Below are positions 19,481-23,696 of a stretch of 64,000 nucleotides of DNA, piece after piece; position 1 is the stretch's first letter; every line of letters starts with the position of its first letter. The DNA is from Lachnospiraceae bacterium (GTDB taxonomy: Bacteria > Bacillota > Clostridia > Lachnospirales > Lachnospiraceae). The stretch spans positions 1 to 64,000 of the forward strand of contig JAILCP010000058.1 in the NCBI GenBank assembly GCA_024680055.1, written 5' to 3'. The translations under genes were made by a program, and so were the position numbers. The notes beneath the pieces are model-generated. The model was given only the letters and a program-made list of their open reading frames with translations, searched no databases and was not told where the DNA came from.

Positions 19481-19510
19481 AAGACTGTCGCATTATGCGG
19501 CAGTCTTTTT
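19481..19510 (+). terminator. ftsZ terminator
   Basis: Stem AAGACTGTCGCA / TGCGGCAGTCTT (one G-U), TTA loop, T tract. Confidence 0.92.
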
Positions 19511-19647
19511 GATTACAAAAAATAAGATTCTACAAACCATACAAACTTCTTTGCAATGGGTGAAAGCTTGGTTTCGTCCAAATATCCGATTCCCAAATCA
19601 CGCTCAAATCAATGCAGACTGCCATCGTAAAAGAATCTTTGGAGTGG

Positions 19648-19676
19648 TTTACCGAGGACTTTATTCATGGTATACT
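19648..19676 (+). promoter_or_regulatory. Promoter of the secreted protein gene
   Basis: TTTACC (19648-19653), a 17-nt spacer, and TATACT (19671-19676), 22 nt ahead of the chosen start codon. It therefore excludes the upstream extension of the ORF in the track. Confidence 0.65.
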
Positions 19677-19697
19677 GAAAAGGAAAGTGAGGGGCTT

Positions 19698-20402
19698 ATG
19701 AAGAAAAGATTATGTAGTTTATTGTTAATGCTGGTGCTGGTACTTTCATGTACCTATGAGATGCCGGTTGCTCTTTCTACGGATGAAGTTCATGCATCTA
19801 CGCAGAAGCTTCAGTTTAATACAAAGAAATTAACACTTAGAGCCGGCTGCAGAGCACAGATTTATGCCTATGGTTGGTATACCGGAAGAATTAAATATTA
19901 TTCCACCAACAGTGAAGTGGTAACCATTTCAAAGAATTGTGTTGTGAAGGCCAAGAACAAGGGAACTGCCACATTGATAGTGGAAGATACCGGAAACGGC
20001 CATAAGTCAAAGTGCAAGGTTACTGTGAAAAAGAAATTGACTTCAAGTCAGGTTCGCAGTAAATTGTACGAATTAAAGGAAAGCTATCCGGAAGGGAAGC
20101 ATTGGACCAACAACAATAAGGATAAGTATGGAAACGGAGGTTGCTATGCCTTTATGACCATTGCCCAGGAATACGTTTTTGGTAAAGAAGTAATGAGAAA
20201 GCAGCATACCTCTTTTAAGAAAATTAAAGTGGGTGATCATATTCGAATCGGAAATTATCACTCCGTAGTGGTTTTAAAGAAAAAAGAGAATTCCGTAATT
20301 GTTGTGGAAGGAAATTACAATTCCTCCATTCACTGGGGAAGAGAAATCACCAAAGCAGAATTAAATAAGACAGGATTCTACGTGGATACCTGTGTATGGT
20401 AA
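19698..20402 (+). CDS. Secreted protein with bacterial Ig-like domain and possible cysteine amidase/peptidase domain
   Basis: 234 residues from ATG 19698 (GAGGGG ribosome site; the track's upstream extension overlaps terminator and promoter). A signal peptide of about 35 residues, then a BIG2-like Ig fold (TKKLTLRAGC... VVKAKNKGTATLIV). The C-terminal domain has GGCYAFMTI (Cys149), GDHIRIG, YHSVVVL (His188) and VVEGNYN. The Cys-His-Asn order resembles NlpC/P60 or CHAP cysteine hydrolases that cut cell wall peptides, but this is inferred from short motifs only. VLSC at residue about 18 is a poor lipobox. Surface or cell wall location is likely. Confidence 0.7.
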   Translation: MKKRLCSLLLMLVLVLSCTYEMPVALSTDEVHASTQKLQFNTKKLTLRAGCRAQIYAYGWYTGRIKYYSTNSEVVTISKNCVVKAKNKGTATLIVEDTGNGHKSKCKVTVKKKLTSSQVRSKLYELKESYPEGKHWTNNNKDKYGNGGCYAFMTIAQEYVFGKEVMRKQHTSFKKIKVGDHIRIGNYHSVVVLKKKENSVIVVEGNYNSSIHWGREITKAELNKTGFYVDTCVW

Positions 20403-20588: not shown

Positions 20589-21035
20589 TTGAAGTCAAGA
20601 GCACCAATAACAGATTATATTGATGTGAGAAATTTCAAAGACGATTTGAAGAATAGCGTCGTAAAGCGCAGCAGAATACGTTTTGTTCCCAATGAAGAGC
20701 AGCAAAAGGAAATAGAAGCAGCCAACCAGGAAGCGATGGAACCGGATGTTTCCAATATGGATCCGGATGTATTGGCTACCGCAGACGAGATTTTTCAAAG
20801 ACTGCAGCGAGAAGCAGAGGAAGACAATCTGGCCAAACAAGAAGAGTGGACAGAGAAGATTGCCGCCGAGAATGCGAAGCAGGATGATAGCGCCTATAAT
20901 GCGACTACCGGATCTTATTCCGGCAATTACGGTAAAGGCGCTGTTTCTGATGAAACAAAAGATATTGCATCAAGTATCCTTAACAGAAAGAGTAACGATT
21001 TGGAAGAACTAATTCGCAACAATTCACAACAGTAA
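20589..21035 (+). CDS. Uncharacterised acidic soluble protein
   Basis: 148 residues starting at TTG 20589 with GGGGG about 8 nt upstream. There is no signal peptide or membrane segment. The middle (residues about 40-100) is rich in Glu, Gln and Ala and likely helical, possibly coiled coil; the end is Ser/Asn-rich and low in complexity. I do not recognise a family. It is the first gene of an operon with the DapF-like gene (24 nt gap) and argS. Base composition is like its neighbours. Confidence 0.75.
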   Translation: MKSRAPITDYIDVRNFKDDLKNSVVKRSRIRFVPNEEQQKEIEAANQEAMEPDVSNMDPDVLATADEIFQRLQREAEEDNLAKQEEWTEKIAAENAKQDDSAYNATTGSYSGNYGKGAVSDETKDIASSILNRKSNDLEELIRNNSQQ

Positions 21036-21059: not shown

Positions 21060-21905
21060 GTGGGTTCTTTTATGATAAAAAAGTACCATGGATTGGGAAA
21101 CGATTATTTGGTGATTGATCCAAGTAAAGTGGATGTGGAACTTCAAGAAACACACATCCGAAAACTCTGTAAGAGAAATTACGGTGTGGGTGCAGACGGC
21201 ATTCTTTATGGACCGATTATGAAGGGGAATGAAATCCATGTAAGGTGTTTTAACCCGGATGCCAGTGAGGCCACCAATACCGGAACCGGAATTCGAATTT
21301 TTGCAAAATATTTGAAAGACGAAGGCTATACCAATGACAAGTGCGTTTGCTTTTATACCGCCAGTGGAAAGACCGAAGTGGAGTTTTTAAATGAAGACGG
21401 CACCCAGGTGAGAGCGAAGATTGGCAAGCCGAATTTTTGTTCTAAATACATTCCTGTAATCGGACAGGAAAGAGAAGTAATCAACGAGGTCATGTATTTC
21501 GCAGGTCAGCCCTACGAAGTTACCTGTCTGAGTGTAGGTAATCCCCATTGTGTATTGTTAAGTGACGAAGTAAGCTATAAACAGGTAATGGAAATCGGTC
21601 CGGCTGTGGAAAGCGCAGAGTATTTCCCGGAACGAATCAATTTTATGGCGTTACATGTTGTGGACAGAACGCATGTGGAAATTGAAGTCTATGAGAGGGG
21701 AGCCGGCTATACCCTGGCGTCCGGAACCAGTGCCTGCGCTGCTGCAGCCACCACGGTGAGACTGGGCTTGACGGAACGTCATGTGGAAGTGAAACAGCCG
21801 GGAGGAACCCTGGATATCGAATTAAATGAAAATGATGAGATTATTATGACAGGAAGCGCAGAAGAAGTTGGCCTTATGATGGTGAACGACGCGTTTTTTG
21901 CATAA
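21060..21905 (+). CDS. DapF-superfamily protein lacking both catalytic cysteines
   Basis: 281 residues with the overall plan of diaminopimelate epimerase: KYHGLGNDYLVID at the start, RCFNPDASEA, GNPHCVL, and VYERGAG in the second half. In true DapF two cysteines act as the acid/base pair. Here the first (in MCGNG) is Thr74 in TNTGTGIR, and the second (in LACGTG) is Ser221 in LASGTSA, and I confirmed both codons (ACC, TCC). Substrate-contact motifs GND, NPD, NPH and ER remain. An epimerase with this chemistry is unlikely, so the usual diaminopimelate epimerase label may be wrong; a different lyase, isomerase or binding role is possible. GTG start with GGGAGG upstream; located between an unknown gene and argS. 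Confidence 0.85.
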   Translation: MGSFMIKKYHGLGNDYLVIDPSKVDVELQETHIRKLCKRNYGVGADGILYGPIMKGNEIHVRCFNPDASEATNTGTGIRIFAKYLKDEGYTNDKCVCFYTASGKTEVEFLNEDGTQVRAKIGKPNFCSKYIPVIGQEREVINEVMYFAGQPYEVTCLSVGNPHCVLLSDEVSYKQVMEIGPAVESAEYFPERINFMALHVVDRTHVEIEVYERGAGYTLASGTSACAAAATTVRLGLTERHVEVKQPGGTLDIELNENDEIIMTGSAEEVGLMMVNDAFFA

Positions 21906-21929: not shown

Positions 21930-23696
21930 ATGAAGAAGATATTGGATGACATTTCAGAAGTAGTTTCATCCGCCTTTGAAAAGTGTGGTTATGATAAAGA
22001 ATATGGAAAAGTAACAATTTCCAATCGACCGGATTTGTGTGAATTTCAGTGTAACGGTGCAATGGCCTGCGCGAAGAAGGCTCATAAGGCACCATTTATG
22101 ATTGCAGACGAGATTAAGGAAGTACTTGATCAGTCAGAGATGTTTGAAAAAGTGGATTCGGTAAAACCGGGATTTTTAAATATGATCATTGCCCCGGAAT
22201 ACCTGGCTAATTATATGGTAACCATGAGCAGTGAAGACAAACTTGGTGTGGAAAACACAGCCAATCCAAGAACCATTGTTATGGATTACGGCGGAGCCAA
22301 TGTGGCAAAACCATTGCATGTAGGTCATTTAAGACCGGCCATCATTGGTGAAAGTATTAAGAGAGTATTGAAATATGTGGGAAATACAGTATACGGAGAT
22401 GTACATCTTGGAGACTGGGGTCTTCAGATTGGCTTGATTATTAATGAGTTAAGACATCGTAAACCGGATCTTCCGTATTTTGATCAGAATTTTACAGGTG
22501 AATATCCAAAAGAAGCACCTTTTACCCTGTCTGATTTGGAAGAAATTTATCCATATGCCAGCGGTAAATCCAAAGAAGATGAGGCTTACAAGAAGGATGC
22601 CTTGGAAATCACCAATGAATTGCAAAACGGACATCCGGGATATACCGCCATTTTGAAACATATTCTTACCCTGTCTCATGCGGACTTAAAGAAGAATTAC
22701 GGTTCATTGAACGTTACCTTTGATTTGTGGAAGGGTGAGTCTGATGCACAGCCTTATATTCCTGACATGATTGAGGATATGAAGAAAAAAGGCATTGCAG
22801 AGGAAAGCGATGGAGCATTGATTGTACGTGTTGCAAAAGATGACGATAAGAGGGAAATTCCTCCTTGTATTATCCAGAAGTCTGACGGAGCAAGTCTTTA
22901 TGCCACCACAGACCTTGGAACCATTATTATGAGAAAGAAGGAGCAGAATCCGGACGCTATTATTTATGTGGTAGATAAACGTCAGGAACTTCATTTTGTT
23001 CAGGTATTCCGTACTGCCAGAATGGCAGGCCTTATTGGGGATGATGTGGAATTGACCCATATTGGTTTTGGAACCATGAACGGAAAAGACGGAAAACCGT
23101 TTAAAACCCGTGATGGCGGAGTTATGAGATTGGAGCATATGATCAAAGATATCTCCGATGAAATGTATAAAAAGATTACCGAGAATCATACCGTTGATCC
23201 TGAGGAAGCAAAGGAAACAGCCAAGATTGTAGGTCTTGCAGCATTAAAATACGGTGATTTATCAAACCAGGCTTCCAAAGATTATGTGTTTGATATGGAA
23301 CGATTCACTTCTTTTGAGGGAAATACCGGTCCATATTTACTGTATTCCATTGTAAGAATCAAATCTATTCTTGCAAAATACAAAGAACTTGGAAAGAATG
23401 CAAAGGATTACAAAATCCTGGCACCAACAACCAAGAGTGAGAAAGATTTAATGCTTGCATTGGCCAACTTCCAGGCCACCATTGATGTGGTTGCAAAGGA
23501 ATATGCACCTCATAAGTTGTGTGCTTATATTTATGAATTGGCGAATACCTTTAATCATTTTTACCATGAAACCAAAATCATGGCAGAAGAGGATGAGCAG
23601 CGTCAGGGAAGTTACATTTTGTTATTAATGCTTACCAAAGAAGTGTTGGAAACAAGTGTTGACTTACTTGGTTTTGAAGCTCCGGAAAGAATGTAA
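21930..23696 (+). CDS. argS: Arginyl-tRNA synthetase
   Basis: Class I synthetase of 588 residues. An N-terminal Add-1 (tRNA D-loop binding) domain occupies about residues 1-110; the HIGH-type signature HVGHLRPAIIGE follows; the region that would hold KMSKS reads NGKDGKPFKTRDGG, as is common in ArgRS; a C-terminal DALR anticodon domain with YDLANTFNHFYHE-like sequence ends the protein. AATGAGGA ribosome site. It is the last gene of a three-gene operon with its own terminator. Confidence 0.96.
   Translation: MKKILDDISEVVSSAFEKCGYDKEYGKVTISNRPDLCEFQCNGAMACAKKAHKAPFMIADEIKEVLDQSEMFEKVDSVKPGFLNMIIAPEYLANYMVTMSSEDKLGVENTANPRTIVMDYGGANVAKPLHVGHLRPAIIGESIKRVLKYVGNTVYGDVHLGDWGLQIGLIINELRHRKPDLPYFDQNFTGEYPKEAPFTLSDLEEIYPYASGKSKEDEAYKKDALEITNELQNGHPGYTAILKHILTLSHADLKKNYGSLNVTFDLWKGESDAQPYIPDMIEDMKKKGIAEESDGALIVRVAKDDDKREIPPCIIQKSDGASLYATTDLGTIIMRKKEQNPDAIIYVVDKRQELHFVQVFRTARMAGLIGDDVELTHIGFGTMNGKDGKPFKTRDGGVMRLEHMIKDISDEMYKKITENHTVDPEEAKETAKIVGLAALKYGDLSNQASKDYVFDMERFTSFEGNTGPYLLYSIVRIKSILAKYKELGKNAKDYKILAPTTKSEKDLMLALANFQATIDVVAKEYAPHKLCAYIYELANTFNHFYHETKIMAEEDEQRQGSYILLLMLTKEVLETSVDLLGFEAPERM

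Follow-up and report, generated by a model that had tools for sequence, protein, structure and literature searches.

A cysteine-free branch of the DapF family and its Thr/Ser member from a Lachnospiraceae genome

Can a DapF enzyme work without cysteine, or has a widespread protein been misnamed? DapF, the diaminopimelate (DAP) epimerase of cell-wall and lysine synthesis, is a textbook two-cysteine racemase and an antibacterial target, with aziridine inhibitors attacking those cysteines; serine is a poor base. The question is raised by a cysteine-free (Ser-type) gene of the DapF family, annotated as dapF, in a 64,000-nt stretch of Lachnospiraceae DNA (contig JAILCP010000058.1; 'the window' hereafter means this whole stretch). 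A thiol-free clade at a point of the pathway where this reaction is needed would either overturn the belief in an obligatory thiol or mean that many genomes have a missing enzyme and a wrongly named family.

An intact DapF fold with both catalytic cysteines replaced

The gene lies at 21060-21905 on the forward strand, an open frame with a plausible ribosome-binding site whose product has 281 aa when started at the GTG and 277 aa when started at the alternative ATG at 21072 (residues are counted from this ATG below). By profile and fold alike its product belongs to the DapF family: it scores 221 bits against TIGR00652 (cut-off 114.65) and 172 bits against Pfam DAP_epimerase (PF01678; cut-off 34.7), and its AlphaFold model (mean pLDDT 94.1, pTM 0.90) finds as its top PDB match in Foldseek the cyanobacterial (Anabaena) DapF bound to D,L-aziDAP (9mro, TM 0.91). 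The likeness to canonical DapF, represented by H. influenzae 1gqz and Anabaena 9mro, spans the full-length fold at about 35-38% identity, and the substrate-contact Asn, Glu and Arg are common to both. Membership of the proline-racemase superfamily was considered and rejected, as DapF structures rank first and the trans-3-hydroxyproline dehydratase (t3HypD) 6r76 reaches TM 0.74 at 13% identity.

Canonical DapF keeps both catalytic cysteines (Cys73 and Cys217 of H. influenzae), whereas the window protein has Thr70 and Ser217 in their place. Thr70 aligns with the first cysteine in a TNTGTGIR motif (21273-21296, forward strand; residues 68-75), where Thr72 also occupies the canonical Asn position, and Ser217 aligns with the second in LASGTSA (21714-21734, forward strand; residues 215-221), with the clade-specific Tyr213 just upstream. 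In a residue-by-residue alignment to solved DapF chains, TGTG pairs with CGNG and LASGTS with LACGTG, both without gaps, and neither site has a cysteine at a shifted position. The loss of both cysteines proposed by an earlier, sequence-only reading is thereby confirmed; its numbering (Thr74 and Ser221) is right when counted from the GTG. The DAP contacts established from DapF structures, N11, N64, N157, N190, E208 and R209 (H. influenzae numbering), occur without exception in the window protein and the six sequences of its genus, in line with the proposal that fold and substrate contacts are kept. Within the genus, pairs whose dS could be measured give a dN/dS of about 0.03-0.08, synonymous sites being saturated in most pairs, and the TGTG or SGTG motif was found again in five related species; the gene is therefore under selection and not decaying, as had also been proposed. 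The window protein is thus an intact DapF-fold protein with both catalytic cysteines replaced.

A cysteine-free branch of the DapF family

When 150 Lachnospiraceae genomes were searched they divided sharply: about 30 yielded a relative at 42-51% identity, and every one of these also had a DapF-like match of the canonical kind, at 30-39%; Cys/Cys DapF accompanies the gene in 30 of 30 Ser-type genomes of the family. Among the extracted sequences, close relatives read SGNG...GYTLASG and distant ones MCGNG...LACGTG, the fuller clade signature being SGNG...ERGAGYTLASG. In the same search 15 genomes had no DapF match, perhaps because their DapF may be too divergent for it, and 14 of these also lack Ddh. 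A wider survey, made up of a GTDB species-genome scan and whole-genome searches (one search pattern contained SGNG), found the Ser/Ser group in 11 phyla: Bacillota outside Lachnospiraceae, Spirochaetota, Planctomycetota, Thermodesulfobacteriota, Verrucomicrobiota, Chloroflexota, Nitrospirota, Armatimonadota, Myxococcota, Methylomirabilota and Pseudomonadota. Orthologues thus share the cysteine change, as the sequence-only reading had allowed. The Thr/Ser clade across Lachnospiraceae that it had envisaged did not emerge: the clade is Ser/Ser and reaches far beyond the family, and only three species, all of one genus, have Thr as the first residue of the pair.

The replacement is not a matter of chance, since 116 Ser/Thr/Gly-type sequences separate cleanly at both catalytic positions from 53 of the Cys/Cys type, in every one of which (53/53) both cysteines are kept. 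With both catalytic columns masked, a 100-row tree (quick search, midpoint root) puts canonical and Ser-type rows into separate clades (SH-aLRT 99), and in it the window genus forms a long branch inside the Clostridial Ser-type group. Monophyly, the SGNG/GYTLASG signature, Y5 and Y213 place the window protein in the clade even though Thr replaces both the first Ser and Asn72; it lies within a monophyletic cysteine-free DapF branch in which both cysteines became serine. Further marks of the clade, in addition to its serine pair, are Tyr5 (Met in canonical DapF), Ile76 (Cys), Gln192, Glu205 (Arg) and Tyr213 (Glu or aliphatic). Matching canonical DapF, N10, N61, N190 and R209 are invariant in Ser-type rows, E208 is found in 117 and N157 in 113 of 118, and the Asn of SGNG is kept in 111 of the 118 sequences, a set that includes one Cys/Cys row. 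Neither a published description of the clade nor a paper on PRK13577 was found among open-licence papers, although a description may exist elsewhere.

Clostridial pairs at the two positions vary (T/S, S/T, S/N, G/S, S/G), whereas genomes outside the family are Ser/Ser in 36 of 36 cases, a count partly built in by the search pattern; the contrast is weak (Fisher p 0.009), because SGNG was part of the pattern and one Cys/Cys row was miscounted among the 82 Clostridial rows. Six genomes of the window genus, the window's included, carry the gene, at 70-80% identity to the window copy: three species have TGTG and three sister species SGTG, so the first Thr arose recently, within this one genus, and at the Asn72 position all six have Thr. 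To judge from Thr70 and Thr72, the window-genus protein appears to have drifted further than the clade. In a Blautia-related subgroup (L123, L125, L128, L032, L085) Gly at the first position (GGNA) means that the first serine has been lost too, and the second motif is changed to LASATG in four of the five. At another locus (L117, 254-1980), a Ser/Gly variant of the Ser-type gene and a canonical Cys/Cys dapF form a tandem pair, the variant immediately upstream.

Routes to meso-DAP and operon context

The sequence-only reading had suggested looking for a second, canonical dapF in the same genome. No second DAP_epimerase gene was found in the window genome, and members of the genus have one Ser-type gene each, with canonical dapF absent. 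Ddh occurs in 7/7 genus genomes (window and six congeners), so the genus can make meso-DAP without an epimerase, and the Ser-type gene is not the only candidate route there. DapL of the TIGR03542 type gave no match above cut-off in the window genome. A LysA homologue (G000:C16:9280-10479) is present in that genome, but at E 1e-40 none was found in three near-complete congeners; it may have been acquired, or may be contamination introduced in binning.

Elsewhere the picture is different. Among 35 Ser-type genomes sampled outside Lachnospiraceae, 21 carry no other DapF-family gene, a result that the Pfam model, run at a loose threshold, bears out (two extra matches lie far below cut-off), and Ddh is missing from all 35. 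Judged by Ddh and DapF, the 21 Ser-only genomes have no other route to meso-DAP. LysA was found in 19 of them, seven of these matches being below the curated cut-off, and DapL above its cut-off in 14. DapL makes LL-DAP and LysA consumes meso-DAP (PMC4176475), so these genomes need an epimerase, for which the Ser-type gene is the only known candidate. Most of the 21 are draft metagenome-assembled genomes (MAGs). Genome incompleteness alone is nevertheless an unlikely cause, since it would have to drop canonical dapF in 60% of genomes yet leave LysA in 90%; the binomial P for losing canonical dapF in this way is about 6e-13 at 10% loss and 2e-4 at 30%.

Two genomes (G441 and G565) carry the operon lysA - Ser-type dapF - PRK06290-type LL-DAP aminotransferase, the aminotransferase copy of G565 being interrupted by a stop, and each also has a canonical Cys/Cys DapF elsewhere. 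In three further genomes (G428, G191 and G265; loci L196-L198) Cys/Cys dapF has this same aminotransferase, at about 60% identity, downstream of it, which indicates that the Ser-type gene occupies a slot that is normally that of dapF. Outside Clostridia no other conserved operon was found, apart from a nearby PhzF-family gene in three Planctomycetota, and searches of 25 loci and of the window gave no lysine riboswitch close to the gene. The PhzF-family gene, of the same fold superfamily, lies close upstream (L106, L110, L112), assigned by family match for L112, by 71% identity for L106 and by clustering for L110. Many Lachnospiraceae carry an AraC/cupin regulator oriented divergently from the Ser-type gene. 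Phage carriage was seen on one viral contig only, and a plasmid-borne Ser-type gene was rejected, the four plasmid regions read being ordinary Cys/Cys dapF. One of the plasmid records, the 96-kb Salmonella plasmid NZ_CP047533.1 (L176), has a chromosomal-looking block cyaA-cyaY-dapF-xerC-uvrD; several multi-megabase records of the plasmid collection look like chromosomes.

Possible roles and the surroundings of the gene in the window genus

The simplest reading is that Ser-type proteins originated as DAP epimerases without cysteine and have kept that function in many bacteria, with a serine two-base epimerase as the favoured origin of the clade. The varied Clostridial pairs would then reflect relaxation or a change of role; in Lachnospiraceae, where a Cys/Cys DapF or Ddh would already supply meso-DAP, the Ser-type copy would be an extra gene, and the window genus would have an accessory or altered enzyme. 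There the protein is probably dispensable for bulk meso-DAP, because the genus has Ddh but no canonical DapF, and because Ser70 has become Thr in three of its six species. We favour this reading tentatively, at close to an even chance, on the strength of the masked-column monophyly, the kept contacts, the 21 Ser-only genomes among 35, all 35 lacking Ddh, and the lysA/aminotransferase operon. The bolder statement that the Ser/Ser protein is the sole, cofactor-independent DAP epimerase across many phyla, with the window's Thr/Ser pair a further step towards a new role, seems plausible but somewhat doubtful. A precedent for serine chemistry may be drawn from the proline-racemase superfamily, which includes a Ser/Cys 4-hydroxyproline epimerase (4HypE) and a Ser/Thr t3HypD, both with a DapF-like fold and with Ser for a catalytic Cys, positioned by Asn (PMC4113996); these belong to another family with another substrate, the epimerase keeps one Cys, and the window's Thr/Ser order is the reverse of the dehydratase's. 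By analogy, the deliberate use of Cys-to-Ser changes to hinder catalysis in DapF and in HisR (PMC12039745, PMC11602996) would speak against an active serine enzyme. The Ser-only genomes could also hold an unrelated epimerase such as DapF2, a PLP-dependent DAP epimerase proposed from co-occurrence and co-localisation for genomes likewise lacking canonical DapF, but homologous to alanine/lysine racemases and unrelated to DapF (PMC9026213). Further points against the favoured reading are that the Ser-only set is mostly draft MAGs with seven LysA matches below the curated cut-off, that both operon genomes have a Cys/Cys DapF, and that the lysine riboswitch is absent near the gene; the variable Clostridial pairs argue against two obligatory bases in those bacteria.

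A new activity or a binding role in place of epimerisation, as the sequence-only reading had proposed, is not established for the clade, for which the Ser-only genomes, mostly with LysA, often with DapL and never with Ddh, point to epimerisation; in the window genus, with Ddh present and canonical DapF absent, such a role is possible. That the whole clade catalyses another reaction on a DAP-like or other amino acid, either a one-Ser elimination or dehydration or a racemisation, while Ser-only genomes obtain meso-DAP through an unrecognised enzyme, is unlikely: the retained DAP contacts and the operon with lysA and the LL-DAP aminotransferase count against it, and 21 genomes would be left without any known DAP epimerase. 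In its favour are the clade-specific Y5, Q192, E205 and Y213, the divergent AraC/cupin regulator, the presence of the gene in addition to Cys/Cys DapF in all 30 family genomes, the Ser/Thr pair of t3HypD in a related superfamily (PMC4113996), and the existence of DapF relatives acting on His, O-ureidoserine and Dab. The cofactor-independent histidine racemases HisR and CntK are DapF-like with a changed substrate, HisR being annotated as DapF (PMC11602996), but unlike the Ser-type proteins they retain both catalytic cysteines. Rather improbable is a non-catalytic DAP- or protein-binding factor confined to Lachnospiraceae, the window genus included, with Ser-type proteins elsewhere perhaps being enzymes; it would accommodate the drift of the two positions in Clostridia, the Asn72-to-Thr change and the Ddh of the window genus, and solved E. 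coli RppH-DapF complexes show DapF in a protein-binding role too, but the substrate contacts are fully retained at a dN/dS of about 0.03-0.08, the 36/36 contrast outside the family is partly a product of the pattern, and no partner is conserved except a 148-aa protein and argS. The notion of a decaying gene, or of an annotation, assembly or alignment artefact, which has nothing but the absence of the cysteines to recommend it, is scarcely credible beside the same motif in five congeners, the synteny, the dN/dS, the pLDDT 94 model and the clean alignment.

Those two neighbours flank the gene on the forward strand, the 148-aa protein (20589-21035) 24 bp upstream, with no match in Pfam and NCBIfam profile searches, and argS (21930-23696; TIGR00456, 426 bits) 24 bp downstream. 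The grouping of the three genes suggested by the sequence-only reading holds as a neighbourhood conserved across the genus, five relatives having the 148-aa protein upstream and argS downstream; their cotranscription is inferred from the 24-bp gaps. Beyond the genus, argS adjoins Ser-type dapF in loci L066, L067, L071, L073 and L085, and in L067, L071 and similar relatives the gene sits in an ftsZ - sigma factor - argS region; upstream of it in L067 and L071 there is also an N-terminal motif (IDxRN...VKR) like that of the 148-aa protein. Between ftsZ and the dapF-like gene of the window lies the gene of a 297-aa protein (19509-20402) that matches the Big_2 domain weakly.
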